Of a stretch of DNA of 16,509 bases, positions 1 to 16,313 are shown one piece after another. The DNA lies in NCBI GenBank assembly GCA_021785115.1, contig JAJYGO010000337.1, positions 1 to 16,509 of the forward strand, given 5' to 3'. The notes below the pieces were generated by a model, which saw only the letters and a list, made by a program, of their open reading frames with translations, was not told the DNA's origin and ran no database searches. Made by a program: the position numbers and the translations under genes. Origin of the DNA: Chloroflexota bacterium (GTDB taxonomy: Bacteria > Chloroflexota > Limnocylindria > Limnocylindrales > CSP1-4). Within the stretch, counting starts at the first letter, position 1. The number at the start of each line of letters is the position of its first letter.

Positions 1-17
1 CGCGCAGGGCTGGAAGC

Positions 18-1664
18 TCAAGGCAGGTCCTCCGCGACGCGCCGCCCGACGAACGCCACCTCGACGCCGTTGATCTCGGCGCCGTGGAGCTTGTTCGCCG
101 CGACGATGTACGCCTCGAGGGACGCCTCGATGATGTTCGTCGACAGGCCGTGGCCGGTGACCACCAGGGCGCCCGGGCCCTCGTCCGAGGAGCGTCGCGC
201 CCGGAGCAGGACCTGGCCCTGCGCGTCGCCGTCGCCCGAGACGGCCTTGATCTCGTACTCGGTGAGCACGGGGTTCCAGCCCAGCACGGGGCGGATCGCC
301 TCGTCCACGGACTTGAACAGCGCGTTCACCGGGCCGTTGCCGGTGCTGTTGCCGGCCTTCGCGCTGCCGGCGACGACCAGGCTGGCCGAGCCGACGGAGT
401 GGCCGCCCGACGACGAGGTGATGCTCCAGCCGAGCAGCTCGATGGAGCGCGGCACGTCGGCCTTGCGCTGCTCGACGAGGGCGAGCAGGTCGGCGTCGGT
501 GACCTCCTTCTTGGAGTCCGCGAGCTGGATCGCGGCGCGGTAGACCGCGTCGAGCTCCTCGCCCTCGACCTCGACGCCCAGCTCGCGGAGCTTGCCCTGG
601 AGGCCCCGCCGGCCGGACAGCTTGCCGATCGACAGGGTGCTGCCGGACAGGCCCACCGACTGCGGGGTCATGATCTCGTAGGTGAGCGGGTTCTTGAGGA
701 CGCCGTCCTGGTGGATCCCCGACTCGTGGGCGAACGCGTTGGAGCCCACGATGGCCTTGTTGGGCTGGATCGTGAAGCCGGTGAGGTAGCTGACCAGGCG
801 CGAGGCCGCGGTGATCTGCTCGGTGGCCACGGACGCCGCGAGGTCCGGGAACTGGGCCGGCCGCGTGCGGAGCGCCATCACCACCTCCTCGAGCGAGGCG
901 TTGCCCGCCCGCTCGCCGAGGCCGTTGATGGTGACCTCCACCTGGCGAGCGCCCGCCTGGACGGCGGCGAGCGTGTTCGCGGTGGCGAGGCCCAGGTCGT
1001 TGTGGCAGTGGACGCTGATCGTGGCGGCGTCGCCGACGCGGCCCTTGACCGCGCCGACCAGCCGGCCGAACTCCGACGGGATCGCGTAGCCGACGGTGTC
1101 CGGGATGTTGAGGGTCGAGGCGCCGGCCTCGGTGACGGCCTCGTACACGTCGAGCAGGTAGTCCAGCTCGGTGCGCGAGGCGTCCTCGCCCGAGAACTCG
1201 ATCTCGGCGTCGCGGCCCAGCGTCTGGCGGGCCCACTTCACCCAGCGCACGGACTCGGCGAGGGCCTGCTCGCGGGTCATGCGCAGCTTGTGCACCAGGT
1301 GGATGTCGCTGGTCGCGATGAACAGGTGGAGGTGCGGCCGCTCGGCGACGCGGATCGCCTCGACCGCCCGCTGCGGGTCCCCGTCGCGGCAGCGGGCGAG
1401 CGCCGCCACGGCGATCCCGCCCCTGGTCTCCTGGGCGATCCGCCGGACCGCCTCGAAGTCGCCGGGCGAGGCGGCCGGGAAGCCCGCCTCGATGACGTCC
1501 ACCTTGAGCCGGGCCAGCTGGCGGGCGACCTCGAGCTTCTCCGCGGCGGTCAGGCCGGCGCCGGGCGCCTGCTCGCCGTCGCGGAGCGTGGTGTCGAAGA
1601 TCCGGACCGCCCCGGCCGGGACGCCCGCCCCGAAGCGCGGGTTGGTTGACTCGAACGAGGTCAC
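18..1664 (-). CDS. leuA: 2-isopropylmalate synthase
   Basis: LeuA condenses acetyl-CoA with 2-ketoisovalerate, the first committed step of leucine synthesis, in the cytoplasm. The 548-residue product has the family layout. An HMGL-like TIM barrel opens with [13 protein letters not shown] near residue 23, carries the metal-binding HCHNDLG (His219/His221) and has the [13 protein letters not shown] motif. A C-terminal LeuA dimer/allosteric domain ends in [17 protein letters not shown] and is the usual site of leucine feedback. Length is normal for a bacterial type-1 enzyme with its regulatory domain. The GTG start at 1664 overlaps the ilvC stop in a GTGA tetranucleotide, with a purine-rich GGTAGGGAG stretch just upstream, so translation is probably coupled to ilvC. 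It is the last gene of the ilvB-ilvN-ilvC-leuA operon. Homocitrate or citramalate synthase is the main alternative within the family, but the domain set and partners favour LeuA. Confidence 0.96.
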
Positions 1665-2710
1665 TTCTTGCTCCCTACCGAACTGGTCGAGGCCTGGGCG
1701 GCGCCCGCCTCGACCACCACCGGGTTGAGGAACGGCATCTTGCCGCGCAGGTCGGCGCCGACCTGCTCGATCTGGTGGTGGCGGTCGCGGGCGCGCAGCT
1801 CCTCGAACTCGCCGCCGCCGGCGTCCTGGACCGCGATCCAGCGGGCCGCGAAGGAGCCCGACTGGATGTCCGAGAGGACGTCCTTCATCGCCGCCTTGGC
1901 GCCCTCGGTCACCCGCGGCCCGGAGACGTAGTCGCCGAACTCGGCCGTGTCGCTGACGCTGAAGCGCATGTAGTTGAGGCCGCCGCGGTACATGAGGTCC
2001 ACGATCAGCTTCAGCTCGTGCATGGTCTCGAAGTAGGCGAGCTCAGGCTGGTAGCCGGCCTCGACCAGCGTCTCGAACGCGGCCTTGATCAGGGCCGACA
2101 CGCCGCCGCAGAGGAGCGCCTGCTCCCCGAACAGGTCGGTCTCGGTCTCCTCCTTGAACGTGGTCTCGAGCACGCCGGCGCGGGTGTTGCCGTTGCCCTT
2201 CGCGTAGGCGAGGGTGCGGGCGCGCCCGGTGCCGGTGGCGTCCTGCTCCACCGCGAACAGCGCCGGCACGCCGCCGCCCTGCTCGTAGACCGAGCGGACC
2301 AGGTGTCCCGGGCCCTTGGGCGCCACCATGCCCACGTCCACGCCCGCCGGCGGCTGGATCCGGCCGAACCGGATGTTGAACCCGTGGGCGAACATCAGCA
2401 GCTGGCCGTCGCGCAGGTTCGGCCCGATCTCGGCGTCGTAGACCGCCTTCTGGACCGTGTCGGGCAGGGCGACCATGATCACGTCGGCCGCCCTGACGGC
2501 CTCCGCGACGGTCATGACCTCGAAGCCGGCGGCCTCGGCGTGGGGCCGGCTCTTGCTCCCCTCGGCCAGGCCGACGATCACCCGCAGGCCGCTGTCGCGC
2601 AGGTTGGCGGCGTGGGCGTGGCCCTGCGAGCCGTAGCCGAGGACCGCGATGGTCTGCCCCTCGAGCGCCGACAGGTCGGCATCGGCGTCGTAGTACATCT
2701 TCGCGGTCAC
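1661..2710 (-). CDS. ilvC: Ketol-acid reductoisomerase, class I
   Basis: IlvC isomerises and reduces 2-acetolactate or 2-aceto-2-hydroxybutyrate to the dihydroxy acids of the Val/Leu and Ile pathways. The 349-residue product starts with the KARI signature [14 protein letters not shown] and a Rossmann [10 protein letters not shown] loop (residues 25-34). The cofactor loop GLAEGSKSR contains serines typical of phosphate recognition, suggesting NADPH use. PKGPGHLVR and the Mg-binding [11 protein letters not shown] and [17 protein letters not shown] segments of the KARI C-terminal domain follow. Length fits the short class I form. The GTG start at 2710 gives a GTGA overlap with the ilvN stop. An in-frame ATG four codons later (MYYDAD) is a plausible alternative. 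The stop overlaps the leuA start in the same way. Product identity is secure; the exact start is less so. Confidence 0.97.
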
Positions 2711-3276
2711 AGCTTGAGCGCCTCCTCGATGGACCCGGCGCCGCGCAGCATGACGATCGCGCCGGTCCGGACCAGTTCCTTGATTCCATAGCTGCGCATG
2801 AGCGCGACCAGCGCGTCGATCTCGCTCTCCGAGCCGGTCGCCTCGACGATGACGGACTCGGGGGCGATGTCGACGACGCGGCCCTTGTACAGCTCGACGA
2901 TCTTGATGACCTCGCCCCGGTTGGCGTCGGACGCGCGGACCTTGATCAGCGCGAGCTCGTGCTCGACGACCTGGTCGGCGGTCACGTCCTGGACCTTGAG
3001 CACGTCGACGAGCTTGTACAGCTGCTTGGCCGCCTGCTCGACCGCGACGTCGTCGCCGTGGAGCGTGATGGTCATGCGGCTGATGTGCTCGCGGTCGGTG
3101 CGCGACACGGCCAGCGAGTCGATGTTGAAGTTGCGCGCCCGCATCAGGCTCGCGACGCGGTTCAGGACGCCGGGCCGGTCCATGACCAGCACGATCAGCG
3201 CGTGGCGGTGCGCCTCGCCCGAGCCGGGGATCGCGCGCGGCGGCGGCGCCGCGTGGGCGGCGGTGTCGGGGGTCAT
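2707..3276 (-). CDS. ilvN: Acetolactate synthase small (regulatory) subunit
   Basis: IlvN binds the catalytic subunit IlvB, raises its activity and usually confers valine feedback inhibition. The 189-residue protein has a Pro/Ala-rich N-terminal tail of about 20 residues. An ACT domain follows ([20 protein letters not shown], then [13 protein letters not shown]), and then the C-terminal ALS_ss_C domain ([17 protein letters not shown], ending GSIEEALKL). The ATG at 3276 overlaps the ilvB stop as ATGA. The open frame extends further upstream inside ilvB, but that part is antisense-like arginine/proline-rich text without family similarity, so this start is chosen. The gene is expected to be translated only with ilvB through the overlap. 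The family name ilvH is sometimes used for the same subunit. Confidence 0.95.
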
Positions 3277-5144
3277 TCCTCGGGGCCTCCCCAGGTCTCG
3301 ATCAGGTCGGACAGGCCCTTGCCGGCGGTCATGAACGGGAAGACGTTCTGCTCCTGCTCGATCTCGAACCAGATGAGCGCGGGGCCGTCCACGGCCTGCG
3401 CCGCCTTGATCGCCGTGTCCACGTCCTCGGGCCGGCTCGCCTTCCAGGACGGCATGCCGTAGGCGTCGGCGAGCTTGCAGAAGTCGGGGCCGGGCAGGTG
3501 GGAGCTGTGGTAGTTCCCCGCGTACACGATCTCCTGCCACTGGCGGATCATGCCCAGCTTCTTGTTGTCGAGGACCGCGATCTTGACCGGGATGTTGTCG
3601 GCGACGAGCGTCATCAACTCCTGGCTGGTCATCTGGAAGCCGCCGTCGCCGACCAGCGCCCAGGTCTCCGCGCTCGGGTTGCCGAGCGCGGCGCCCATCG
3701 CCGCCGGGACGCCGTAGCCCATGGTGCCGAGCCCGCCGGAGCTGATGTGGCTGTTCGGGCGCTTGAACCTCGTGTAGCGCGCGGTCCACATCTGGTTCTG
3801 GCCGACGTCGGCGACGTAGGTGCCCACGTGGTCGGTCAGCTCGCCGATCCGCGCGACGACGAAGTCCGCCGTCATCACGCCCTCGCGCCAGCCGCCCGAG
3901 CCGTGCCAGCTGGCGGCCTGGGACTCGGCGCGCCACTCGTCCAGCTGGTCGAGGTACTCGGCGCGGGCCTCTCGGGCCACCGGGTGCACCGCCTTGGCCA
4001 GCGCCGCGAGGACGCGCTTGGCGTCGCCCACGATCGGGACCTCGACCGCGACGTTCTTGCCGATCTCGGCGGGGTCGATGTCGGCGTGGATGATCCGCGC
4101 GTACGGGGCGTACGTGGCGACGCTGCCGGTGACCCGGTCGTCGAAGCGCATGCCGATGGCGATCAGGAGGTCGGCGGCCTGGATCGCCCGGTTTACGTGC
4201 TTCCAGCCGTGCATGCCCATGTAGCCGTAGGCGAGCGGGTGGTCCTCGTCGAGCGCGCCGATGCCCAGCAGCGACCAAGCCACGGGGATCTGCGCCTTCT
4301 CGGCGAAGGCCCTGAGCTCCTCCTCGGCGTTGGCGATCAGCACGCCGTGCCCGGCCAGGATGAGCGGCCGCTTGGCGTTGGCGATCTCCCTCGCCGCCGT
4401 CTTGATCTGCTTGGGGTGCCCCTCGATCGTCGGGCGGAAGCCCGGCAGGCCGGCCACGACCTCCTCCTCGGTCGGGTGCTCGGCCCGGGTCTCCTGCTGG
4501 AGCGCGTCCTTGGTGAAGTCAACGTGGACGGGCCCGGGGCGACCGTGGCTCGCGAGGTAGAAGGCCTCGGCGACGACCCGCGGGATGTCGTCGGCGTGGC
4601 GGACGAGGTAGTTGTGCTTGGTCATCGGCAGGGTGATGCCGGTGATGTCGATCTCCTGGAAGGCGTCCTTGCCCAGGAGCGGGCTGGCGACGTTGCCCGT
4701 GAGCGCGACCATCGGGACCGAGTCCAGCATCGCCGTGCCGATGCCGGTGACCAGGTTGGTGGCGCCGGGGCCGCTGGTGCCCATGCACACCCCGACCTTG
4801 CCGCTTGCCCGCGCGTAGCCGTCGGCGGCGTGGGCGCCGCCCTGCTCGTGCCGGACGAGGATGTGCCGGACCTCGGGGTAGTCGGCCAGGATGTCGTAGA
4901 TCGGGAGGATGACGCCGCCCGGATAGCTGAACAGCGTGTCCACGCCCTGGCGGACGAGCGCCTCCATGAGCGCGTCGGCGCCGATCCTGGTGCGCTTCTT
5001 GACGCGCGAGTCGTGCAGCATTGCGCGGCGCGCCTCGTCGATCGCCGCGGCGGCCGGCGTGCCGGCGCCGGGCACGTGGCTGCGACGCTGGGGCGCGCTC
5101 GCGGCGGTACCGCCTGCCGGCGGTTCGCCTTTGGTCACGGTCAT
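3273..5144 (-). CDS. ilvB: Acetolactate synthase large (catalytic) subunit
   Basis: IlvB is the TPP- and FAD-dependent enzyme that makes acetolactate or acetohydroxybutyrate from pyruvate, the first shared step of BCAA synthesis. The 623-residue product has the three TPP-enzyme domains. The N-terminal PYR domain holds the catalytic Glu ([20 protein letters not shown], Glu100). The central FAD/regulatory domain includes [12 protein letters not shown] near 330-341. The C-terminal PP domain has the Mg/TPP motif GDGGFQM (499-505) through Asn527. About 50 N-terminal residues before RTRIGADAL are low complexity and unlike the core, and an in-frame ATG at residue 42 is an alternative start. The upstream AAGGGA lies about 10 bases before ATG 5144. 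It is the first structural gene of the operon, about 50 bases beyond the attenuator hairpin, so it is likely controlled by transcription attenuation. Confidence 0.97.
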
Positions 5145-5194
5145 CGCTGTTCGGTCCCTTTCGCCCGGTCGGTCCCGCGACCTGCCCGGACATG

Positions 5195-5222
5195 CAAAGA
5201 CCCTCGCCTCCCGGCGAGGGTC
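5195..5222 (-). terminator. Attenuator terminator hairpin of the ilv operon
   Basis: On the minus strand GACCCTCGCC (5222-5213), loop GGGA (5212-5209) and GGCGAGGGTC (5208-5199) form a perfect 10-bp GC-rich stem, followed by TTTG. The U run is only three long, so termination may be leaky or factor-assisted. Its place between the leader ORF stop (5248) and the ilvB start (5144) is that of a BCAA-operon attenuator, not of a terminator for an upstream gene. Confidence 0.8.
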
Positions 5223-5293
5223 CCTTCGGTTCTAGGTGGCTCCGGCGCTATCGGCGCCCGATCCTCCGCGATCCTCCGTTCTCCCGCCGGGAG
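5208..5293 (-). promoter_or_regulatory. Predicted antiterminator pairing
   Basis: The leader RNA segment CTCCCGGCGGG (5293-5283) is complementary to CTCGCCGGGAG (5218-5208): nine consecutive Watson-Crick pairs, then a G-U and a G-C. This pairing uses the 5' arm and loop of the terminator, so the two structures exclude each other. The same upstream segment can fold on itself as CTCCC-GGC-GGGAG (5293-5281), which would hide it and favour the terminator. A further GGCGC-N5-GCGCC hairpin at 5258-5244 encloses the leader stop codon. The pairing is read from sequence; function is inferred. Confidence 0.6.
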
Positions 5294-5463
5294 CCGGTAA
5301 TGAGGAGGCCAAGAAGGCCCTCAAGGCCCAGGAGGAGCGAGCGAAGAAGGTCGAGGGGGGATACGCCGAGCTGGAGGTCGCGGGTGGGCACGGTCACGCG
5401 GCGGCCGTCCGTCGTCACGACGACGGCGACAGCTCGGCGGTCCCGGTTCTCGAAGAAGCCCAC
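5248..5463 (-). CDS. Leucine-rich leader ORF upstream of ilvB (putative attenuation peptide)
   Basis: A 71-codon frame starts at GTG 5463 with AGGAG six bases upstream (GCAGGAGTTCCAGTG), and stops 25 bases before the attenuator stem. The product begins VGFFENRDRRAVAVVVTTDG. Residues 37-55 hold eleven Leu and one Ile (LDLLRSLLLGLEGLLGLLI), and it ends in an Arg/Gly-rich tail. Valine is clustered at 12-16. Leu codons include five CTT, the Ile is ATT, and one Val is GTA, all scarce in neighbouring genes by eye. Translation stalling on these codons when Leu/Ile is short would leave the antiterminator segment just downstream exposed. It is longer than classic leader peptides, so an independent small protein with a hydrophobic helix is the alternative. 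An in-frame ATG at 5514 lacks a spaced Shine-Dalgarno and overlaps the promoter. Confidence 0.6.
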   Translation of the reverse strand: MGFFENRDRRAVAVVVTTDGRRVTVPTRDLQLGVSPLDLLRSLLLGLEGLLGLLITGSRRENGGSRRIGRR

Positions 5464-5501
5464 TGGAACTCCTGCACGCCCGCTACGCGGCGGGTGCCGG
5501 G

Positions 5502-5531
5502 AGTGTAACGGCATCCTCGCCAAGGGCGCAA
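5502..5531 (-). promoter_or_regulatory. Candidate promoter of the ilv leader/operon
   Basis: On the minus strand TTGCGC (5531-5526) and TACACT (5507-5502) are 18 bases apart, resembling -35 and -10 boxes. The start of transcription would fall near 5495, about 30 bases before the leader GTG. The -10 is the better match; the -35 matches only its first three bases. Confidence 0.5.
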
Positions 5532-5631
5532 CCACCCCAACCGCAACCTTCGGGTGCGCGGCGGGCGGGCGGCGCGAGGGGCTCGGCGCGGCCGAGCTGG
5601 GGTGGCCGCGCTCCCCGAGCAGCGCGGGCGG

Positions 5632-5648
5632 CTGGACCGCCAGTCCAT
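5632..5648. repeat. Dyad copy 1 (TGGAC-N5-GTCCA)
   Basis: CTGGACCGCCAGTCCAT contains TGGAC (5633-5637) and GTCCA (5643-5647) around a five-base spacer, centre 5640. It is a perfect 5-bp half-site dyad and the first of four in this divergent intergenic region. Possible operator; function inferred only from placement. Confidence 0.6.
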
Positions 5649-5673
5649 GCGATCGGGGCCAATCGGAGCCGCG

Positions 5674-5690
5674 ATGGACTCGGGGTCCAG
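5674..5690. repeat. Dyad copy 2 (TGGAC-N5-GTCCA)
   Basis: ATGGACTCGGGGTCCAG has perfect TGGAC (5675-5679) and GTCCA (5685-5689) half-sites, centre 5682. That is 42 bases (about four helical turns) from copy 1. It is followed by CCG, as in copy 4. Confidence 0.6.
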
Positions 5691-5735
5691 CCGTCGACCG
5701 CCAGGAGCCGTGACGAGCGTCTGCCGAGGCCGGCT

Positions 5736-5752
5736 CTGGACCCGGGGGCCAG
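5736..5752. repeat. Dyad copy 3 (one mismatch)
   Basis: CTGGACCCGGGGGCCAG has TGGAC (5737-5741) and GGCCA (5747-5751), one base off the consensus right half. Its centre at 5744 is 62 bases (about six turns) from copy 2. Confidence 0.55.
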
Positions 5753-5777
5753 TCGCGGACAGCGGACCGCCTGAAGT

Positions 5778-5794
5778 CTGGACTCCGGGTCCAG
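5778..5794. repeat. Dyad copy 4 (TGGAC-N5-GTCCA)
   Basis: CTGGACTCCGGGTCCAG is the longest match, with 6-bp half-sites CTGGAC/GTCCAG, centre 5786. It lies 42 bases from copy 3, repeating the copy 1-2 spacing. A lone GTCCAGCCG half-site with the same right flank recurs at 5834-5842. Confidence 0.6.
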
Positions 5795-5935
5795 CCGGGC
5801 GAGTCGGGGGCGGGCCGAGGCGGGCCGGGGCAGGTCCAGCCGAGCGAGTCGAGAGGTCGGCCTGGGCGAGACCAGCCAAGCCCAATGCACCCGCGCGATG
5901 AGCCGCCGATAAGCCGAGGCGGGTTCAATGGCCCC

Positions 5936-6667
5936 ATGCCCAGCCGCAACTTCGACGCCGCGATCCGACGCGTGGTTGTCGCGCGCCACCGCTCCCTCGC
6001 CGAGGACATCCAGAGGTTCCGGGAGGACGCCGGCCTGAGCAGGGCCGCACTCGCCGGGGCGGCGGGCGTGGACGCGGCGTTCCTCGGCCGGATCGAGCGC
6101 GGCGACGAGCGCCCGAGCCTCGAAACGTACGAGCGGCTCGCGGCGGTCCTCGGCGCCGACCTGAGCGTGCGCCTGTACCCCAACTCCGGACCGGCCATCC
6201 GCGACCGCCTGAGCGCCCCGATGCTCGAGGCCCTGCTGGGGATCCTCCACCCGCGCTGGCGCACGTTCACCGAAGTCCCGGTCCGGAGGCCCTCGCGCGG
6301 TTGGATCGACCTCGTGCTGCACGACGCCCAGGAGCGCGCCCTCCTCGCCGCCGAGCTCCAGTCCGAGCTCCGTCGGCTGGAGCAGCTGATCCGCTGGCAC
6401 GCGGAGAAGGCGGCCTCCCTGCCGAGCTGGGAGGGCTGGTCGCAGCTGGGCGCCGCACCCGACGTCAGCCAGATCCTGCTCGTGCAACGCACGCGCGCGA
6501 CGCGGGCCGTCGCCACGGCGTTCGCGCGACAGCTTCGGGCCGCCTACCCGGCCCACCCGGACGACGCACTCGCCGCGCTCACGACGCCACGCTCGCCGTG
6601 GCCGGGGCCCGCCCTGCTGTGGGCGGAGGTCACCGGCTCCAAGGCGCGGGTCCTGGGCGGCCGATGA
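5936..6667 (+). CDS. XRE-family HTH protein with PD-(D/E)XK-like C-terminal domain
   Basis: The 243-residue product has an XRE/Cro-type helix-turn-helix at about 21-80: [20 protein letters not shown], then a recognition region ending [20 protein letters not shown]. Residues about 85-220 begin [20 protein letters not shown] and include EVPV (Glu113), GWIDLVLHD (Asp125) and [19 protein letters not shown] (Glu140-Leu-Gln142). That E...D...ExQ order along alternating beta/helix text resembles a PD-(D/E)XK nuclease core with Gln replacing the usual Lys. Similar HTH-plus-tail proteins are common uncharacterised proteins in high-GC bacteria, to my recollection. ATG 5936 is preferred because it directly precedes the domain text; the in-frame ATG at 5885 adds 17 unlike residues. 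Neither has a good ribosome site. It is divergent from the ilv operon, with dyads between, so it may bind there. Whether it regulates or cleaves DNA is unknown. Confidence 0.75.
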
Positions 6668-6689
6668 CCGCCCCGCGCGCTATTCGCGG

Positions 6690-6695
6690 TACGCT
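6690..6695 (+). promoter_or_regulatory. Candidate -10 element of leuCD
   Basis: TACGCT fits the TANNNT pattern, 33 bases before the leuC ATG. It predicts a leader of about 27 bases that includes the AGGA at 6718-6721. No clear -35 is seen. The same hexamer precedes the zinc-ribbon gene at 16298. Confidence 0.4.
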
Positions 6696-6728
6696 TGTCC
6701 GCCCGCCCACGCACCACAGGACCGCACG

Positions 6729-8171
6729 ATGACCGCACCGCGAACGCTCGTCGAGAAGATCTGGGACGACCACGTCGTCGCCCAGGACGAAGGCGCCCCC
6801 GCCCTGCTCGCGATCGACCTGCACCTCATCCACGAGGTCACCAGCCCCCAGGCCTTCACCGGCATCCGCCAGCGCGGCATCCCGGTGCGCCGCCCGGACA
6901 AGACGGTGGCCACGGCCGACCACAGCACGCCGACCACGCCCCGGGGCCTGCCGATCCTGGACCAGATGGGCGCGGCGCAGATCAAGCAGCTCGAGACCAA
7001 CTGCGCCGAGTACGGCATCCCGATCCACGCCTACGGCAGCGACACGCAGGGCATCGTCCACGTCATCGGCCCCGAGCTCGGGCTGACCCAGCCGGGCATG
7101 ACGATCGTCTGCGGCGACTCGCACACGGCCACCCACGGCGCGTTCGGGGCCCTCGCCTTCGGCATCGGCACCAGCGAGGTCGAGATGGTCCTCGCCACCC
7201 AGACGCTGCTCCAGCGCAAGCCCAAGACGTACGAGGTCCGCGTGGACGGCCGGCTGGGCCCCGGCGTCTCGGCCAAGGACATCATCCTCGCGCTCATCGC
7301 GAAGATCGGCACCGGCGGCGGGACGGGCCACGTCTTCGAGTACACCGGCGAGGCCATCCGCGCGCTCAACATGGAGCAGCGGATGACGATCTGCAACATG
7401 TCCATCGAGGGCGGGGCCCGGGCGGGCCTGGTCGCCCCCGACGAGGTCACCTACGAGTACCTCCAGGGCCGGCGCCACGCCCCGCAGGGGAGGGCCTGGG
7501 ACGAGGCCGTCGAGCGCTGGCGCCAGCTGCCGAGCGACGAGGGCGCGGTCTACGACAAGTCGGTCACCCTCGACGCCTCGACACTCGAGCCGATGGTCAC
7601 CTACGGCACCAACCCGGGCATGGGGATCCCGATCACCGGGCGCGTCCCCACGCTCGACGAGATGCCCGACGAGGCCGCCCGACGCGGCCTCGCGCACAGC
7701 CTCGAGTACATGAACCTCACCCCCGGCCAGCCGATCGCGGGCCAGCCGGTGGACGTGGTGTTCATCGGCTCCTGCACCAATAGCCGGATCAGCGACCTGC
7801 GCCTCGCGGCCAGCGTGCTCAAGGGCCGCACGGTGCACGCAGGGACCCGCGTGCTGGTCGTGCCGGGGAGCCAGCAGGTGAAGGCGCAGGCCGAGCGCGA
7901 GGGGCTGGACCAGGTCTTCAAGGCGGCCGGCGCCGAGTGGCGCGAGGCGGGCTGCTCGATGTGCCTCGCGATGAACGGCGACCAGCTCTCGCCGGGCCAG
8001 TACGCGGTCAGCACCTCCAACCGCAACTTCGAGGGGCGCCAGGGCAAGGGCGGCCGGACGCTCCTCGCCAGCCCGCTGACCGCGGCGGCGTCCGCGATCA
8101 AGGGCGCCGTCACCGATCCCCGGACCATCCCCGGCGTCGAGGACCTCGTGACCGTGGGCGGAGGGTACTGA
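6729..8171 (+). CDS. leuC: 3-isopropylmalate dehydratase large subunit
   Basis: LeuC, with LeuD, isomerises 2- to 3-isopropylmalate, the second leucine-specific step, using a [4Fe-4S] cluster. The 480-residue product begins [17 protein letters not shown] and has the aconitase-superfamily motifs DHSTPTTP and [13 protein letters not shown]. The three cluster cysteines are visible in IGSCTNSR (Cys349) and CSMC (Cys409, Cys412). Length is typical of the bacterial LeuC of the LeuCD heterodimer. The ATG at 6729 follows an AGGA eight bases upstream, and the first residues match the family N-terminus, fixing the start. Its TGA is three bases before the leuD start, so the two are co-transcribed. No attenuator-like structure was seen in front of it, unlike the ilvB operon. 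Confidence 0.97.
8160..8165 (+). promoter_or_regulatory. Ribosome binding site of leuD
   Basis: GGAGGG lies nine bases before the GTG at 8175, inside the last codons of leuC. It supports the GTG as the leuD start. Confidence 0.6.
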
Positions 8172-8174
8172 GCC

Positions 8175-8807
8175 GTGGCCGAGCCGTTCCGCGCCTTCTC
8201 CAGCAAGGTCGTCCCGATCCGGGCCGAGAACATCGACACCGACCAGATCGTGCCGGCGCGCTACCTCAAGGTCACCAACAAGGACGGCCTCGCGGACGCC
8301 CTGTTCCACGACTGGCGCTACAACGAGGACGGGTCGCAGCGGGAGCCGCGCTTCATCCTCGACGAGCCCCGCTACGCGGGCGCCAAGATCCTGGTCGCGG
8401 GCGACAACTTCGGCAGCGGCTCCTCGCGCGAGCACGCGCCGTGGGCCCTGCGCGCCTGGGGGATCCAGGCCGTCTTCTCCACCGGCTTCGCCGACATCTT
8501 CCGCAGCAACAGCCTCAAGAACGGCGTGCTGCCGATCGTCGTGGACAGGGCCACCCACGAGCGCCTGTTCGAGATGGCCGAGGCGAACCCCGACGGCGAA
8601 GTGCGCGTCGACCTCGCCGAGCAGGGCGTCCTGCTGCCGGACGGCTCCACCCTGGACTTCGAGATCGATCCGTTCGCCAAGATGATGCTGCTGGCCGGCC
8701 AGGACGAGGTCGGCTACGTGCTGGCCAAGGACGCCGACATCTCGGCCTGGGAGGCGGGCCATCCCGCCCGTGTGGACACCCGGCTCGGGACGGCCCTCGC
8801 GCGCTGA
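8175..8807 (+). CDS. leuD: 3-isopropylmalate dehydratase small subunit
   Basis: LeuD is the swivel-domain partner of LeuC in isopropylmalate isomerase. The 210-residue product has the N-terminal VVPIRAENIDTDQIVPARYL. The hallmark GDNFGSGSSREHAPWALRAWG follows, and then STGFADIFRSNSLKNGVLPI, all standard for the family. Length is normal for a LeuD of the roughly 200-residue type. The GTG at 8175 is three bases after the leuC stop and is preceded by GGAGGG, so the pair form one transcript. leuB, often the third partner, does not follow; instead there is a repeat-bearing gap and an unrelated gene. Confidence 0.97.
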   Translation: MAEPFRAFSSKVVPIRAENIDTDQIVPARYLKVTNKDGLADALFHDWRYNEDGSQREPRFILDEPRYAGAKILVAGDNFGSGSSREHAPWALRAWGIQAVFSTGFADIFRSNSLKNGVLPIVVDRATHERLFEMAEANPDGEVRVDLAEQGVLLPDGSTLDFEIDPFAKMMLLAGQDEVGYVLAKDADISAWEAGHPARVDTRLGTALAR

Positions 8808-8838
8808 GCCGGGCCGCAGACCGGCCACGGCGGGTGGC

Positions 8839-8923
8839 GACGCCGTGCGGCGCACGACGCCGGGCGGCGCGCGGCGCCGTGCGGCCCATGTGGTCCAGCA
8901 GACCATGACGCCCGGCAGCGCAT
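8839..8923 (+). repeat. Imperfect 17-bp tandem repeat before the HEWLH gene
   Basis: Three 17-base units start at 8839, 8856 and 8873, close to GACGCCGTGCGGCGCAC with a few substitutions each. After one strongly diverged unit, a fifth in-register unit (8907-8923) matches about 13 of 17 bases and runs into the ATG at 8922. Each unit contains small GC inverted repeats. There is no T run to suggest an intrinsic terminator for leuCD. Confidence 0.55.
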
Positions 8924-9698
8924 GACCTCGCCCGCCAGCGGGGACGCCTCCCGGCCCCCGTCCTCGAGGTGGCGCCTGCTCGGGGTCGTGGCGCCGGCCC
9001 TCGACGCTCGGACCGGCGTGTTCGGCATGCGCCACCGGCGGACGATGGCAGGGGCCGAGGTGGACGCCTGCACCGGGATGCTGCGCGCCCTGCCCGGGGC
9101 GGTGGCGGCGTGGAGCGACGGGAACGTCGAGATCGATGCCGAGGTGGTCGTGGCCGAGCGGCCGCTGGCCAGGCTGGCGCGGGACGGCGGCGGCTGGTGG
9201 GCCGACCCTGGCGCCGCGGCGGACCTGCTCGAGCCCCACCTCGCCTCGCCGCGCGACTCGATCCTGCTGCTCTACCCCTCGGACGGCGACCCGGCCCTCC
9301 GCGGCGCCTGGGGCTACACGTGGGGCGAGGTCGCGTTCCTGGGCGGGGCCGGCTTCTCGGCCATCGTGTCCGATCCGTGGCCCGGCTGGGCGACCATCGA
9401 GGACCCGGCCCACGGCTTCGTCCACGAGTGGCTGCACCAGGTGGAGGCGGTGTACCGCCGGCTGGGCGTCCCCGAGGACGACCTGCCGGGACTCCACGAC
9501 GTGGCCGACCGGCGGACGACGCGCGCCGACGCCCCCGACCGCGACGAGACGTACGCCGAGCACGAGCGCCGCACGGGCTCCTGGCGGCCCTGGTATCGCG
9601 ACTACATGACCGGTACGGTCGGGCCCAAGTCTGGCGAGGCGCCCCGCCTGCGGGGCCTGACCCGCGAGCGCTGGCTCCTGCGGCCGAACCCGGCATGA
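8922..9698 (+). CDS. Uncharacterised protein with HExxH metallopeptidase-like motif
   Basis: I do not recognise this 258-residue protein as a named family. It has no signal peptide or membrane segment. The N-terminal half has RLLGVVAPALDARTGVFG and SDGNVEIDAEVVVAERPLAR. The middle has ILLLYPSDGD and GAWGYTWGEVAF. The most telling part is GFVHEWLHQVEAVYRRLG with His168-Glu169-x-x-His172, a zincin-type metal site on a helix. GLHD (His192/Asp193) and Glu175 are candidate third ligands. A late aromatic RPWYRDYMTGTVGP follows. A zinc hydrolase-like role is inferred from the motif alone. ATG 8922 has no clear ribosome site. An in-frame ATG at residue 36 is an alternative start, but upstream residues look coherent. 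It is not obviously related to leucine synthesis. Confidence 0.72.
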   Translation: MTSPASGDASRPPSSRWRLLGVVAPALDARTGVFGMRHRRTMAGAEVDACTGMLRALPGAVAAWSDGNVEIDAEVVVAERPLARLARDGGGWWADPGAAADLLEPHLASPRDSILLLYPSDGDPALRGAWGYTWGEVAFLGGAGFSAIVSDPWPGWATIEDPAHGFVHEWLHQVEAVYRRLGVPEDDLPGLHDVADRRTTRADAPDRDETYAEHERRTGSWRPWYRDYMTGTVGPKSGEAPRLRGLTRERWLLRPNPA

Positions 9699-9738
9699 CG
9701 CCCGGGAACCGATCCTGCGCAGCCGCCGTCTGGCGCCC

Positions 9739-10425
9739 ATGAACCGCCGTCCCCGCACTCTTCCCCTGCTCGCCGCCACCGTGACGGCGCTCGCCCTGGC
9801 GGCCTGCACCGCCAACCCCGGTCCTCCCCCCGCGTCCGTCCCCGCATCACCGGCACCACCCGGCGTCGAGACGGCGAGCCCCGCGGCATCGCCGAACCCG
9901 GTCGCCACGGCCAGCCCCGCGGCCCCGGCGAGCGCCTCCCCGACCGAGGCGCCCGGCGCCCCGTCGAGCGGGGCCCCCGGCACACCGCCGGTCCCGGGCG
10001 GCAGCGGCGGCAGCACGCCGGGCATCACGCCGATCCCCATCGACCCGGGCGGCCCCGGCTTCTCGATCGGCCCGATCCAGGTCCAGCCGCCGACCCTCGT
10101 CCGGCCGGTCGCGAGTCTGCTGAACGTCCACGACGTCCGCGCCGAGTCCGTCGCGGCCACGGTGTCGGCCGGCCACGTCATCGCGACCGTGGTCTGGTGG
10201 AGCGGCCCGGCGCCGTGCAGCGAGCTGTCGGAGGTCAGCGTCGCCCGGAGCGGCAGCGCCTTCACCCTGACCGTGCGCGAGGGCACCCGGGAGCTCGGCA
10301 TCGCCTGCCCGGCCATCGCCGTCCACAAGGAGGCCTCGGTCGACCTCGGGGTGCTGGCGGCCGGCAGCTACACCGTCGCGGCCACCGGCGTGGACGCCCC
10401 GGTCACGGTGACCGTCCCGGGATGA
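9739..10425 (+). CDS. Secreted lipoprotein with Pro/Ser/Ala-rich linker
   Basis: The 228-residue product starts with a lipoprotein signal: NRRPR, a hydrophobic stretch TLPLLAATVTALA, then lipobox LAAC with Cys23 as the acylation site. Residues about 24-115 are a low-complexity Pro/Ala/Ser/Gly linker, likely extended and spanning the outer cell layer. The C-terminal domain of about 110 residues (VASLLNVHDVRAESVAATVS onward) is predicted beta-rich from its alternating hydrophobic pattern. It has a Cys pair (GPAPCSEL and LGIACPAI) that could form a disulfide. No enzyme motif is seen. It lies upstream of the MarP-like membrane protease, so a cell-envelope role is plausible but not shown. The start is set by the signal peptide; no strong ribosome site is visible. 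Confidence 0.8.
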   Translation: MNRRPRTLPLLAATVTALALAACTANPGPPPASVPASPAPPGVETASPAASPNPVATASPAAPASASPTEAPGAPSSGAPGTPPVPGGSGGSTPGITPIPIDPGGPGFSIGPIQVQPPTLVRPVASLLNVHDVRAESVAATVSAGHVIATVVWWSGPAPCSELSEVSVARSGSAFTLTVREGTRELGIACPAIAVHKEASVDLGVLAAGSYTVAATGVDAPVTVTVPG

Positions 10426-10447
10426 GGCGGATCCGGTCAACCTCGCC

Positions 10448-10453
10448 CATACT
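10448..10453 (+). promoter_or_regulatory. Candidate -10 for leaderless marP-like gene
   Basis: CATACT ends six bases before the GTG at 10460, so transcription would begin at or next to the start codon, giving a leaderless mRNA. The same hexamer precedes ilvD at 13409. No convincing -35. Confidence 0.45.
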
Positions 10454-10459
10454 CGCCGG

Positions 10460-11635
10460 GTGAACCTGTTCGACCTCCTGGCCGCCGTCGTCCTGGTGGC
10501 GGCCGTCATCGCCGGCACGCGCACCGGTGCCCTCCCCCAGATCGGCGGCATCGCCGGCGCGGTGGGAGGCCTCCTGCTCAGCCTCAACCTGGCCCCGTGG
10601 ATGGTCAGCGTGACCTCCGGCTTCCAGCCCGTCCCGAGGGTGCTGGCGGTCCTGGGGGCGATCATCGCGGCAGTGCTGATCGGCGAGGCGATCGGCTCCG
10701 GCCTGGGCCGGGCGCTCGCCGACCGCCTCGGCCAGGGCGTCCTGTCCGGCGTGGACCGGGCCGCCGGGGCGGTGCTCGGCGCGGCGCAGGCGATCCTGAT
10801 CATCTGGCTTGCGGGCGGCCTGCTGGCCGTCGGGCCGCTGCCGACCGTGGGCCGCACGGCGTCCGAGTCGTTCACGATGCAGGTCATCGAGGCCTACCTG
10901 CCTCCCCCGACCAAGGTCGTCGGCCAGATCGCCGGGGCGCTCGACGCGTCCGGCCTGCCGGCAGTCTTCGTGGGCCTCGAACCCGCGCCGCTCGCCCCCG
11001 TGGACCTGCCGGGCTCGGCCCAGGCCCGCCGGATCGCGGCCGGGGCGATCGACGGGACCGCTCGCGTCGTCACGCTCGCCTGCGCCACGCAGGTCACCGG
11101 CACGGCCGAGCTCATCGCCCCCAACTACCTGGTCACCAACGCGCACGTGGTGGCGGGCGCCCAGGCCATCAACGTCGAGCTCGGCTCCGAGGACGTCGCG
11201 GCGAGGGCGGTCGCGTTCGACCCGGAGCTCGACGTCGCCGTGCTCTACGCGCCCGGCTTCAAGGGCACGGTGCTGCGGTTCGCCACCGCCATCCCGGATC
11301 GCGGCGTCCAGGGCGCGGCGATCGGCTACCCGGGCGGCGGCCCCATGGTCGTGATCCCGGCCGGCGTTACGGGCTCCTATCCGGCCACGGGCCGCGACAT
11401 CTACAACAAGACGGTCATCGACCGCACGATCATCGAGCTCCGCGCCGCGATCCAGCCCGGCGACTCGGGCGGCCCGCTGGTCCTGCCCGACGGGACGATC
11501 GGCGGGCTGGTGTTCGCCGAGTCCCGCGACGTCGCCGGGGTGGGCTACGCGCTGACGCCGACCTCGGTCGCCGCGGCCGTGCAGCCGGCCATCGGCCGGA
11601 CGCGCGCGGTCGACCTCGGCCCGTGCATCCACTAG
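10460..11635 (+). CDS. MarP-like membrane serine protease (CvpA domain + trypsin-like domain)
   Basis: The 391-residue product has an N-terminal CvpA-type membrane domain (about 1-125). Its four hydrophobic segments start with LFDLLAAVVLVAAVIAG and include VLAVLGAIIAAVLIGEAIGS and AAQAILIIWLAGGLLAV. An extracytoplasmic chymotrypsin-fold protease domain follows. The catalytic triad is readable: TNAHVVAG (His229), ELDVAVL (Asp258) and QPGDSGGPL (Ser336). Cys208 and the near-terminal Cys389 occupy positions like the regulatory disulfide of mycobacterial MarP (Rv3671c), which is needed for acid and oxidative stress resistance. GTG 10460 is chosen because the membrane domain begins there and a -10-like CATACT lies six bases upstream, implying leaderless translation. 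It is followed after 13 bases by the DUF885 gene. Substrate here is unknown. Confidence 0.9.
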   Translation: MNLFDLLAAVVLVAAVIAGTRTGALPQIGGIAGAVGGLLLSLNLAPWMVSVTSGFQPVPRVLAVLGAIIAAVLIGEAIGSGLGRALADRLGQGVLSGVDRAAGAVLGAAQAILIIWLAGGLLAVGPLPTVGRTASESFTMQVIEAYLPPPTKVVGQIAGALDASGLPAVFVGLEPAPLAPVDLPGSAQARRIAAGAIDGTARVVTLACATQVTGTAELIAPNYLVTNAHVVAGAQAINVELGSEDVAARAVAFDPELDVAVLYAPGFKGTVLRFATAIPDRGVQGAAIGYPGGGPMVVIPAGVTGSYPATGRDIYNKTVIDRTIIELRAAIQPGDSGGPLVLPDGTIGGLVFAESRDVAGVGYALTPTSVAAAVQPAIGRTRAVDLGPCIH

Positions 11636-11648
11636 CGGCGGACCGACC

Positions 11649-13394
11649 ATGACCTCCGGCAGCCCAGGCGAGGCGGGCGCGAGCGACCCCCGCGTGTCCC
11701 GGCTGGCGGACGCCTACTGGGAGGCCACGCTCGCCTTCGCGCCCACGCTGGCCACCGCGATCGGGGACCGCCGGTTCGACGACCGCATGCCGGACCCGAC
11801 GCCCGAGGCGGCCGCCGCCCAGCGCGCCCGCCTGGCCGCGCTGCTCGCCGAGCTCGACGCGATCGGTCCGGCCGACCCGCCCTCCGAGGCCGATCGCCTG
11901 ACGCGCTCCGCGCTCCGCGCCGGGCTCGAGGGGAACATCGCCGAGCTCGACTCCGGGCTCCGCGACTGGAACGTGGACTCGCTCGAGGGGGTGCCCGCGG
12001 ACCTGCTGGTGATCCCCGACTTCCAGCGCGTGGACGGGCCCGCCGCGGGCGATGCCATGGTGGCGCGCTGGCGGGCGCTGGCCCGGTTCGTGGACGCGCA
12101 CGCGGCGACCCTGCGGTCGTCGCTGGCGGACGGCCGCGTCGCGGCGACGCCGACCGTGGACCGCAACATCGCGCTCCTCGACGGCCTGCTGGCCGAGCCG
12201 GTGGAGCGGTGGCCCCTGGTCCAGACGCCGCTCGCCGGCGCCGAGGCGGCCGGGCCGGTCTTCCCCGACGCCGAGCGCGACCGGTTCGCCGCGGCGCTGC
12301 GGGACGTCACCGAGGTGGAGATCCGGCCGTCGCTCGCGCGGCTCCGCGCGCTCCTCGCCGACGAGATCCGGCCGGTCGCCCGGCCCGCCTCCGCGCCCGG
12401 CATGGGCCACGTGCCCGGCGGGCTGGAGGGCTACCGCGGGCTCATCCGCGCGCACACCTCACTCGACCTCGCGCCCGAGGCCCTCCACCAGCTGGGCCTC
12501 GACGAGATCGCGCGCATCGACGCCGAGCTCGAGGCCCTGGCCGGCCGGGTGCTCGGCGCGCGCGGCCTCGCGGCGGCGGTCGAGCGGCTGCGGTCCGATC
12601 CATCGCTGGGCTTCTCGAGCCGCGAGGAGGTCCTCGCCAGCGGCGTCGAGGCGCTGGCGCGCGCGAACGCGGCCGTGCCGGAATGGTTCGGCCGCCTGCC
12701 CAAGGCCCCCTGCGTCGTGGTGGCCATGGGGCCGCACGAGGAGGAGCACGGCACCATCGCCTACTACCGCGAGCCCGCCGCCGACGGCTCCCGGCCCGGC
12801 CAGTTCTACCTCAACCTCGCCCGGCCGGAGACGCGCCGCCGGTACCAGGCCGAGGCGCTCGCCTACCACGAGTCGGTGCCCGGCCACCACCTCCAGCTCG
12901 CCATCATGCAGGAGCTGTCCGGGCTGCCGGCGTTCCGGCGCCACCTGGGCGTCACGGCGTTCGTGGAGGGCTGGGGCCTGTACGCGGAGCGCCTCGCCGA
13001 CGAGATGGGCCTCTACTCGGACGACCTGTCGCGGCTGGGGGTCCTCTCGTTCGACGCCTGGCGCGCGTCCCGGCTGGTGGTGGACACGGGCATGCACGCG
13101 CTGGGCTGGCCGCGCGACCGGGCGATCACGTTCATGTCCGAGCACACCGCGCTCGCGGTCAACAACATCGCCAACGAGATCGACCGCTACATCGGCATGC
13201 CGGCGCAGGCACTCGCCTACAAGACCGGCCAGCTGGAGATGCTCAGGGCGAGGACGTCCGTGGAACGCCGGCTCGGCGCGCGCTTCGACATCCGGGCCTT
13301 CCACGACGTCCTGCTGGGCTCGGGCGCGGTGCCCCTCACGACGATGGCCGAGGTCGTGGACGCGTGGGTGGCGGCGCGGCTCCGGGGCTCCTGA
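11649..13394 (+). CDS. DUF885 family protein, putative zinc metallopeptidase
   Basis: The 581-residue product is a full-length DUF885 member. The N-terminal helical part begins DPRVSRLADAYWEATLAFAP. The family core follows: YHESVPGHHLQ (His407, Glu408, His413), EGWGLYAERLADEMG (Glu440), VVDTGMHALGW and YIGMPAQALAYKTG. The HExxxGH arrangement plus the downstream Glu gives a gluzincin-like metal site, and members are regarded as predicted metallopeptidases. No signal peptide is seen, so it is probably cytoplasmic, unlike some secreted relatives. It starts 13 bases after the MarP-like gene, likely on the same transcript, so the two hydrolases may serve related peptide turnover. That link is inference. 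Substrate unknown. Confidence 0.9.
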   Translation: MTSGSPGEAGASDPRVSRLADAYWEATLAFAPTLATAIGDRRFDDRMPDPTPEAAAAQRARLAALLAELDAIGPADPPSEADRLTRSALRAGLEGNIAELDSGLRDWNVDSLEGVPADLLVIPDFQRVDGPAAGDAMVARWRALARFVDAHAATLRSSLADGRVAATPTVDRNIALLDGLLAEPVERWPLVQTPLAGAEAAGPVFPDAERDRFAAALRDVTEVEIRPSLARLRALLADEIRPVARPASAPGMGHVPGGLEGYRGLIRAHTSLDLAPEALHQLGLDEIARIDAELEALAGRVLGARGLAAAVERLRSDPSLGFSSREEVLASGVEALARANAAVPEWFGRLPKAPCVVVAMGPHEEEHGTIAYYREPAADGSRPGQFYLNLARPETRRRYQAEALAYHESVPGHHLQLAIMQELSGLPAFRRHLGVTAFVEGWGLYAERLADEMGLYSDDLSRLGVLSFDAWRASRLVVDTGMHALGWPRDRAITFMSEHTALAVNNIANEIDRYIGMPAQALAYKTGQLEMLRARTSVERRLGARFDIRAFHDVLLGSGAVPLTTMAEVVDAWVAARLRGS

Positions 13395-13408
13395 CCCGCC
13401 GCGCGGGG

Positions 13409-13414
13409 CATACT
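13409..13414 (+). promoter_or_regulatory. Candidate -10 element of ilvD
   Basis: CATACT lies 40 bases before the ATG at 13455, which has GAGGA (13446-13450) four bases upstream. Promoter and ribosome site both point to 13455, not 13558, as the original ilvD start. Confidence 0.4.
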
Positions 13415-13454
13415 GGGGGGCGCAGACCCGCCGCACCCACGCCCCGAGGAAGAC

Positions 13455-13557
13455 ATGGCCGCAGACCGCCCGCTCCCCTACGACCGCCCCGTCGACCCCG
13501 GCAAGCGCCACAGCCACGCGCTGACCGACGGTCCCGACCGCGCGGCGGCGCGGGGCG
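13455..13557 (+). other. ilvD: N-terminal part of ilvD in another frame (frameshift)
   Basis: From ATG 13455 the frame reads MAADRPLPYDRP, then [17 protein letters not shown], which is the usual DHAD N-terminal sequence (cf. [19 protein letters not shown]). It loses the family after CGG at 13551. The rest of the enzyme continues in the +1 frame from MLKAVGF at 13558. Dropping one G from GGGG (13552-13555) would give ...AAARAMLKAVG and a continuous 582-residue protein. A sequencing or assembly indel is the simplest explanation; a true mutation is possible. Confidence 0.8.
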
Positions 13558-15204
13558 ATGCTCAAGGCCGTCGGCTTCAGCGACGACGACCTCGCCCAGC
13601 CGATCATCGGCGTCGCGACGACCTGGATCGAGACGATGCCCTGCAACATCAACCAGCGTCGGCTGGCCGAGTTCGTCAAGCAGGGCATCCGGGCCGCCGG
13701 CGGCACGCCGATGGAGTTCAACACGGTCGCGGTGAGCGACGGCGTGTCGATGGGCACCGAGGGCATGAAGGCCTCGCTCATCAGCCGCGAGGTGATCGCG
13801 GACTCGATCGAGCTGGTCGCCCGCGGCCACCTGTTCGACGGGATCGTGATCCTGGTCGGCTGCGACAAGACCATCCCGGCCGGCGCCATGGCCCTCGGCC
13901 GCCTCGACATCCCGGGCCTCGTCCTCTACAACGGCACGATCCTGCCGGGCACCTACAAGGGCCAGCCCGCCGACGTGGTCACCGTGTTCGAGGCCATCGG
14001 CGCCTACCGGGCCGGCACGATCACCCTCGACGAGCTGTACGAGGCGGAGAACGGCGCCTGCCCCGGCGCCGGGGCCTGCGGCGGCCAGTTCACCGCCAAC
14101 ACCATGTCGATGGTCCTCGAGTTCCTGGGCCTGTCGCCTGCGGGCCTCAACGGCATCCCGGCCGAGGACCCGGCGAAGGACGAGGCCGCGCGCCGCTGCG
14201 GCGAGCTGGTGATGACGCTCGTCCACCACGACGTCCGCCCGTCGTCGATCGTCACCAAGCGCTCGCTCGAGAACGCGGTCGCGGCCGTGGCGGCGACCGG
14301 CGGCTCCACCAACGCGGTGCTGCACCTGCCGGCGATCGCCGCGGAGTACGGGCTCTCGCTGTCCCTCGACGAGTTCACCGCCGTCGCCGACCGCACGCCG
14401 CTGATCGCGGACATGCGCCCCGGCGGCCGCTACCTCGCCGCGGACATGTACCAGGCCGGCGGCGTGGGCATCGTGATGAAGGAGCTGCTCAAGCGGGACC
14501 TCCTCCACGGCGGCGAGAAGACGATCGACGGGCGGACGATCGCCAGGATCGCCGAGGACGCGGTGGCCACCGAGGGCCAGCGGGTGGTCCACCCCATCGA
14601 GACGCCCATCAAGCCCTTCGGCGGCCTGACCATCCTGCGGGGCTCCCTCGCCCCCGAGGGCTGCGTCGTCAAGCTGGCCGGCCACGAGCGCAAGACGCAC
14701 CGCGGCCCGGCCCGCGTGTTCAACAACGAGAACGAGTGCTACGCGGCCGTCCGCGACCGCAAGATCAACAAGGGCGACGTCCTGGTGATCCGCTACGAGG
14801 GGCCCGTGGGCGGGCCCGGCATGCAGGAGATGCTCTCGGTCACGGCCGCGATCCAGGGCCAGGGCCTGGGCGGCGACATCCTGCTGCTCACCGACGGCCG
14901 GTTCTCCGGCGGCACGCACGGGCTGATGATCGGCCACGTGGCCCCCGAGGCGGCCGTCGGCGGCCCGATCGCGCTGGTCGAGGAGGGCGACATCATCAGC
15001 GTGGACGTGGACGCCAAGGCGCTCAACCTCGAGGTGGACGAGGCCGTGCTTGCGGAGCGGCGCGCGCGCTGGGCGCCGCCGGCGCCGCGCTACACGACCG
15101 GGGTCATGGCCAAGTACGCCGCGCTGGTGTCGTCCGCCTCGCTGGGCGCCGTCACCAACGGCGCGGCCCTGCAGCGGGCGCTCGACGCCCGGATGAACGG
15201 CTAG
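13558..15204 (+). CDS. ilvD: Dihydroxy-acid dehydratase (N-terminus displaced by frameshift)
   Basis: IlvD dehydrates the dihydroxy acids to the keto acids of Val/Leu and Ile, using an Fe-S cluster. From ATG 13558 the 548-residue frame shows the three cluster cysteines in PCN (Cys29), GCDK (Cys102) and [12 protein letters not shown] (Cys174), a set associated with [2Fe-2S] DHADs. The C-terminal family motifs [33 protein letters not shown] and [17 protein letters not shown] are intact. About 34 family residues lie upstream in another frame (13455-13557), so translation from 13558 would give a truncated start, and ATG 13558 has only GGGG in front of it. If the shift is an assembly error the gene is normal. 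It is separate from the ilvBNC-leuA operon and on the opposite strand. Confidence 0.93.
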
Positions 15205-15262
15205 CAGCCGGAGGGGGCCGGGGCCGGGAGCAGCAGCCGGGGGCACGCCCGAGGCGGGGCGG

Positions 15263-15270
15263 AAGGAGGA
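15263..15270 (+). promoter_or_regulatory. Strong ribosome binding site of the LLM gene
   Basis: AAGGAGGA ends four bases before ATG 15275. It is the best Shine-Dalgarno match seen in the window and fixes this start. Confidence 0.75.
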
Positions 15271-15274
15271 CGAG

Positions 15275-16222: not shown

Positions 16223-16231
16223 CGGGCGCGG

Positions 16232-16259: not shown

Positions 16260-16297
16260 CCCCGATCCGGGGGCTCGATCCCGCGGCCCGGGTGCAG

Positions 16298-16303: not shown

Positions 16304-16313
16304 CCGCCCCACT

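Follow-up and report, generated by a model that had tools for sequence, protein, structure and literature searches.

The minus-strand leader upstream of ilvB in a 16,509-nt stretch of Chloroflexota DNA (contig JAJYGO010000337.1, positions 1 to 16,509; hereafter the window) very probably acts as a ribosome-mediated transcription attenuator of ilvBNC-leuA that senses leucine, isoleucine and valine. An attenuator at this place had been proposed from the sequence-only reading of the window, and the proposal is now supported by a conserved Leu/Ile/Val run, by two pairings kept in relatives and by frozen synonymous sites in the tail of the leader open-reading frame (ORF). Comparison with relatives points to a conserved ORF with position-specific rare codons, a terminator, an exclusive pairing and a fixed place before ilvB, and the steps that would connect these elements are transcription, translation, stalling of the ribosome and read-through on starvation.

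The leader lies directly before ilvB (3273..5144; TIGR00118 of NCBIfam, 705 bits), ilvN (2707..3276, start approximate; TIGR00119, 189 bits), ilvC (1661..2710; TIGR00465, 425 bits) and leuA, the gene for 2-isopropylmalate synthase (18..1664; NF002086, 637 bits), all on the minus strand and together the biosynthetic operon of the amino acids that would be sensed. The genes leuC, leuD and ilvD are also found nearby in the window, on the opposite strand (6729-8807 and 13558-15204). The promoter-like pair, AGGAG and GTG that had been pointed out upstream of ilvB are present as stated, in the form of a −35-like TTGCGC (5526..5531, minus strand), an 18-nt spacer, a −10-like TACACT (5502..5507, minus strand) and a Shine-Dalgarno-like AGGAG (5469..5473, minus strand). 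TTGCGC or TTGAC boxes were seen in many relatives (uncounted), 69 of 80 loci have a TA[CG]ACT box no more than 70 nt before the leader start, and a loose Shine-Dalgarno-like purine motif is found in 68 of the 80. At ten of these loci (e.g. L045, L048, L051, L053, L095), the −10 box ends 9-10 nt before the start codon, which suggests leaderless translation there. Within 5000-6800, generic scans for promoters and terminators found neither element at their thresholds.

Relatives were gathered by an IlvB search of 61 genomes, 47 of which gave a match, and of a genome contig collection from which 80 loci were kept. The 110 ilvB loci reduced to 96 distinct ones; the twin of the window, L001, is included in the locus counts, and the nearest genome, G001, shares all sampled words with the window. 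The leader motif was matched in 46 of the 96 loci, and the other 50 comprise seven with 206 nt or less upstream, seven with more diverged leaders (L021, L024, L041, L047, L049, L055, L062), one (L073) that keeps the terminator and complementary tail with an indistinct leader, eight of a sister family assigned by title, handle or leader sequence, two of another type, and 25, with IlvB identity of 51-55%, that carry no such leader. Upstream of ilvB in L080 and L081 is another leader type rich in branched-chain amino acids (BCAA), with a different sequence (LGLLLVLAILRLVILLGWRDGG in L081), and in the 206 nt available upstream at L057, GTA, CTT and ATT codons belong to what may be the end of a diverged leader, with a terminator of similar type after it. 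The sister-family locus L069 was misplaced by the motif finder in one comparison. Later counts use an HMM over 188 loci, 137 of which have a leader, 82 of them distinct; dropping L185 and L186, which are without a terminator, gives 80, and dropping one duplicate segment gives the 79 used for pair counts. Downstream of the 82 distinct leaders, ilvB follows within 26-494 nt in 77, three lie at contig ends, and two have no ilvB within 732-754 nt. Of 177 genomes in the class, 81 gave a match to a profile of the 46 leaders; every one of these belongs to the family of the window, and 79 hold a single copy. In G005 there are two copies, each of which precedes a copy of ilvB, and G119 has a second, weak match. 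By record titles and protein names, the leader-bearing group belongs to Chloroflexota, Candidatus Limnocylindrales, with one leader record (L078) titled Deltaproteobacteria. The class name Limnocylindria and the family name of the group we take to be those of GTDB.

The leader ORF (5248..5463, minus strand; 82 distinct homologous leaders) runs for 71 codons from a GTG start at 5463 to a TAG stop at 5250-5248 and is predicted to be translated, given a conserved start position, the Shine-Dalgarno-like motif and coding-type divergence of its N-terminal part. The start codon lies 16-18 codons before a DGR motif in all 46 motif-matched leaders (TTG 25, GTG 18, ATG 3); among the 80 leaders, TTG is used in 42, GTG in 31 and ATG in 7. 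What had been singled out as odd, a leader of 71 codons with the antiterminator strand inside the ORF, we agree to be so, and the arrangement is kept across leaders of 60-76 codons. A protein search with the leader gave 1217 relatives at E ≤0.01 among 7978 candidates scored, and every named relative among the 120 matches listed is a hypothetical protein. The window leader hit no Pfam or NCBIfam family at E up to 1, and the 46 leader members gave scattered weak matches, the best at 0.0042 (Pfam, two members) and 0.011 (NCBIfam, one member). A Glu/Lys-rich ORF on the reverse strand (5236-5508) was set aside as a presumed mirror image of the Leu codons.

The putative control region extends from codon 34 (GTA) to codon 55 (ATT) (5299..5364, minus strand) and is rich in Leu, Ile and Val, with the rare codons CTT, ATT and GTA. 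Within it, codons 37-55 (LDLLRSLLLGLEGLLGLLI) hold 11 Leu and one Ile in 19 codons, just as had been counted; Leu clustering this tight occurs in 1 of 20000 shuffles of the peptide, and the Leu/Ile/Val run is conserved in relatives. Across 80 ORFs, codons ending in A or T are far more frequent in the control region than in the N-terminal part for Leu (253/621 vs 13/196), Ile (113/182 vs 5/72) and Val (118/198 vs 33/375), mainly as CTT, ATT and GTA, with no rise for the other amino acids (95/838 vs 341/1725). In nine genes of the window these codons are rare (CTT 3/380, GTA 2/332, ATT 0/195), and in the window leader all five CTT, the sole GTA and the sole ATT fall in the control region. Individual columns can switch amino acid and still keep a rare codon: at column 54, Leu is CTT in 17/25 and Ile is ATT in 8/9, and at column 57, Leu is CTT in 24/32 and Val is GTA in 8/12. 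Val is GTA in 32/37 at column 41, and Ile is ATT in 41/43 at column 62. When the whole leader is compared with ilvB, codons for Gly, Asp, Ala, Pro and Thr also end in A or T more often, so that the specific feature is the concentration in the control region. The control codons are rare synonyms of all three branched-chain amino acids, beyond Leu alone. In G001, a genome 91% complete, 30 tRNA gene matches (L189-L218) were found, and Leu(GAG), Val(TAC) and Ile(GAT) are absent from them, whereas Ile(TAT) is present; we take this set as incomplete and give it no weight as evidence.

Downstream of the ORF, the 10-bp terminator hairpin that had been placed at 5222-5199 is indeed found and forms the stem of a predicted intrinsic terminator (5197..5224, minus strand; 13 pairs with flanking pairs) that is conserved in 80 of 82 loci, where it follows the stop codon by 19-34 nt. 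Its positions are paired in 99.4% of 947 cells with 29 double-changed cells, figures matched by none of 500 shuffles, and three of its pairs are changed on both sides among 79 distinct sequences; for double-changed pairs and pair types, 45 and 438 of 500 shuffles, respectively, reach the observed number. In the best 8 nt after the stem there are 5-7 T in 68 of 80 loci and 4 in the other 12, including the window, where the tail (TCTTTGCA) is a weak U-tract missed by the generic scan. RNA folding, which had been put forward as a check, gave a divided answer: the 106-nt segment 5300-5195 folds better than its shuffles (z −4.31, 1 of 200 as good), whereas the 356-nt whole leader is uninformative, its stability not exceeding that of shuffles (z −0.83, 19 of 100 as good).

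The candidate antiterminator joins CTCCCGGCGGG, inside the ORF (5283..5293, minus strand), to CTCGCCGGGAG, which is part of the terminator 5′ arm and loop (5208..5218, minus strand), both strands being assigned by pairing and conservation. The 11 pairs, one of them G-U, that had been described as exclusive with the terminator are present, and taken alone the match in the window is weak, as 69 in 1000 codon-shuffled ORFs do at least as well. Over the 80 loci, an average of 31% of codon shuffles reach the observed antiterminator length, and when energy is the measure, 95% of the shuffles are surpassed at 29 of 80 loci. Since, in the window, the Leu cluster and the hairpin region stand above chance but the antiterminator is marginal and the scans were negative, the comparison with relatives had to decide. 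With the structure drawn from the window's own sequence, the antiterminator core is paired in 98.3% of 629 cells, four of them double-changed (C-G to U-A), which none of 500 shuffles match; G-U, A-U and G-C alternate at another pair, and slid versions of the antiterminator pair in 37-61%. The covariation score beats all 500 shuffles for terminator and antiterminator alike. For the antiterminator, which excludes the terminator, covariation is modest and rests on one pair, double-changed pairs and pair types being equalled by 166 and 126 of 500 shuffles, and 7 of 79 sequences break one pair. The conservation in relatives that had been called for is nonetheless there, as both exclusive pairings are kept and the synonymous sites of the antiterminator strand hardly change. 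What lifts the attenuator above chance is the conservation of the −10 box, the terminator and the antiterminator core.

In the ORF stretch ATT ACC GGC TCC CGG CGG GAG AAC GGA (5275..5301, minus strand; columns 62-70), synonymous divergence is 0.00-0.19 per column, and in columns 63-68 (ACC to GAG) pS is 0.075 vs 0.440 in ilvB (1033/1035 pairs), indicating that the RNA is under selection in the core of the tail. A possible protector hairpin, CUCCC-GGC-GGGAG (5281..5293, minus strand), is paired in 92.4% of cells, which is no better than shuffles and lends it no support. From the end of the antiterminator strand to the end of the stop codon is 20-36 nt across loci (35 in the window), so that a terminating ribosome would leave the strand mostly uncovered.

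In the mechanism that we propose, translation of the 71-codon ORF by a ribosome would accompany transcription of the leader by RNA polymerase. A shortage of charged Leu-, Ile- or Val-tRNA would make the ribosome linger on the rare control codons (34-55), leaving the ORF tail CCCGGCGGG free to pair with CTCGCCGGG in the terminator 5′ arm and loop and allowing read-through into ilvB; with a good supply, the ribosome would cover the tail, the terminator would fold and transcription would stop. When the window leader was folded statically as far as the terminator loop, with 30 nt masked for the ribosome and pairs across it permitted, the antiterminator formed with the P site at 17 of the 20 codons 34-53 and at none of the 15 codons 54-68. 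Nine or ten antiterminator pairs formed at codons 34-36 and 40-53, and none at 37-39 or 54-68, so the structure is lost at codons 37-39 and from 54 on even though these lie inside the control region; a mask shortened by 3 nt in front shifts the limits by one or two codons. As modelled, slow translation through most of the control region would thus favour read-through, and passage of the ribosome across the tail would favour termination. Ten antiterminator pairs form again at codons 69 and 71, owing to the 20-36 nt that separate the 5′ strand from the last base of the stop codon, and the structure also forms without a ribosome. These two modelled states, no ribosome and a ribosome at the stop codon, do not fit the simple scheme; the candidate protector hairpin, which could have solved the second, does no better than shuffles. 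At the stop codon the pairing would have to be blocked by the ribosome between the strands or by tight coupling to the polymerase.

The first 33 codons of the ORF (5365..5463, minus strand) form an N-terminal module that is conserved within the family of the window. Residues R9, A13, D19, G20, R21 and R22 are at least 90% conserved. Over 1033/1035 pairs, pS is 0.473 in the N-terminal part (columns 1-40), 0.482 in the helix part and 0.440 in ilvB, and dN/dS is 0.59, 0.46 and 0.27, respectively. In 14 closer, non-overlapping pairs, synonymous and non-synonymous codon differences number 96/114 in the N-terminal part, 54/63 in the helix part and 1784/887 in ilvB, and taken together these figures indicate a constraint on the peptide that is real but moderate. 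AlphaFold2 predicts a beta hairpin and a long helix for the leader with low confidence (mean pLDDT 63, pTM 0.27). A candidate GCCRTC/GAYGGC hairpin in this part did not covary (GTC with GAC 22 and GAT 10; ATC with GAT 7 and GAC 5), so the N-terminal part looks conserved as a protein. In the window's family, the first 34 residues have a mean identity of 0.62 in 33 pairs with IlvB identity 0.80-0.90 and retain 0.50 in 64 pairs with 0.60-0.70, out of a sample of 300 pairs, whereas the N-terminal parts of sister-family leaders, taken as all but the last 17 residues and hence different in length, share 0.18-0.45 in 22 pairs at IlvB identity 0.80-0.86. The sister family (Candidatus Limnocylindrus, Aquidulcis) shares the Leu/Ile control codons, a C-rich tail complementary to the 5′ arm of a terminator, and ilvB downstream, and differs in leaders of 37-39 aa that end in LLGLLIQPRRG or similar, in a tail that abuts the stop codon and in N-termini that are not conserved. 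Such drift appears to be as expected of an ordinary leader peptide, and the persistence of the module in the window's family therefore sets its attenuator apart. Homologues of the N-terminal part without a terminator were also noted: L185 (G035, ORF frame 222-447) lies before a gene that by eye resembles prephenate dehydratase, and L186 (G108, minus strand) is a stand-alone 52-codon ORF related to the module. The latter has three database matches, one of them 98% identical and likely itself, and gave no match in four other genomes of the same genus.

A constrained N-terminal part, a low-confidence model with a beta hairpin and long helix and the stand-alone relative L186 are what one would also see if the ORF were an ordinary small membrane protein gene cotranscribed with ilvB, its Leu run a transmembrane helix and the hairpin an intercistronic terminator. 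We regard this as very unlikely, as such a helix does not require its Leu/Ile/Val positions to be enriched in rare codons or the synonymous sites of a terminator-complementary tail to be frozen, as the leader is single-copy in nearly all genomes with a match (79/81) and mostly precedes ilvB (77/82), and as an unrelated N-terminus accompanies the same RNA layout in the sister family. Conservation of the N-terminal part also exceeds what control codons need, which would suit an arrest peptide whose nascent chain stalls the ribosome on free leucine or another ligand and works the same RNA switch. This too we consider highly improbable: many columns of the part expected in the tunnel during stalling vary (for example, column 51 has L, G, E, V and column 58 has L, F, I, V), with some fixed, and that part shows selection on codon choice, an argument for tRNA charging. 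A further possibility, which we hold at decidedly less than even, is that the gene has a dual use, the C-terminal half being the attenuator sensor and the conserved N-terminal beta-hairpin module working as a peptide, either on the nascent chain, where it would establish or maintain the stall, or as a small protein acting in trans. One 71-codon frame would then carry three layers of selection, for peptide, codon choice and RNA pairing.

Constitutive attenuation, with a hairpin that merely lowers basal expression and an incidental ORF, would agree with a whole leader that is not unusually stable, and is more improbable still, since the ORF, its start position, the control codons and the antiterminator strand are all conserved. 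A T-box or riboswitch is the least credible reading of all: T-boxes are reported in Chloroflexi, for ileS and trp genes of two Dehalococcoides genomes (PMC2494555, as excerpted), but the window holds no Rfam family at gathering score, the six matches in 5100-5800 lie far below gathering and include no T-box (best E-value RsmY, 16.9 bits vs 57), and there is a conserved coding frame instead.

The attenuator has counterparts in other phyla, described here from excerpts of the cited papers. The Corynebacterium ilvB-II motif, the ilvBNC uORF attenuator, shares the BCAA-rich uORF, the exclusive terminator and antiterminator, ilvB downstream, one copy per genome and AUG, GUG or UUG starts; it differs in phylum and in a uORF usually of 15-17 codons (10-24 overall), as against 60-76 codons and a conserved N-terminal module in the Chloroflexota leader, which has no Rfam match (PMC10272879). 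In Mycobacterium tuberculosis, the ilvB1 attenuator also has a short BCAA-rich uORF and a terminator opposed to an antiterminator, with four control codons (LVVI), and there the ribosome that reaches the stop is said to mask the antiterminator, whereas here the strand ends 20-36 nt before the stop end (PMC13236596). The Staphylococcus aureus ilv-leu attenuator shares a Leu/Ile-rich leader ORF, a BCAA operon and conserved codons and terminator; its peptide has 26 aa and is encoded upstream of ilvD, the U tail of the terminator is the partner of a predicted antiterminator, and the operon is also under CodY (PMC5794164). Attenuators of ilvB with short BCAA uORFs occur in other Actinobacteria as well, and changes to the control codons upstream of Streptomyces ilvB are reported to have been without effect, a warning that sequence evidence is no proof (PMC1262725, in the portion available). 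No ilvB attenuator in Chloroflexota was described among the matches listed in the open-licence literature, and the excerpts of PMC4833913 and PMC2494555 are not about one. The Chloroflexota attenuator is set apart from the known ilvB attenuators by its 60-76 codon leader with a conserved N-terminal part and by an antiterminator strand that ends before the stop, so that the long conserved leader and the tail geometry would be what is new.

Because rare synonyms serve as control codons for all three amino acids together, and the N-terminal part of each frame offers an internal control, about 80 natural variants could test how control-codon choice tunes an attenuator. Theory ties control-codon sensitivity to tRNA charging, which means that rare codons are not predicted without knowing the tRNAs (PMC1183508, as excerpted). 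The tail geometry poses the question of how termination is ensured if a terminating ribosome leaves the antiterminator strand uncovered. Finally, the conserved N-terminal module raises the question of whether attenuator leaders can carry a peptide function. Sinorhizobium peTrpL, a trp attenuator leader peptide with a second function in trans, is a precedent, experimental in that organism according to the excerpted account (PMC7298713) and only guessed here, where the leader of the ilvBNC-leuA attenuator may likewise do more than sense its amino acids.
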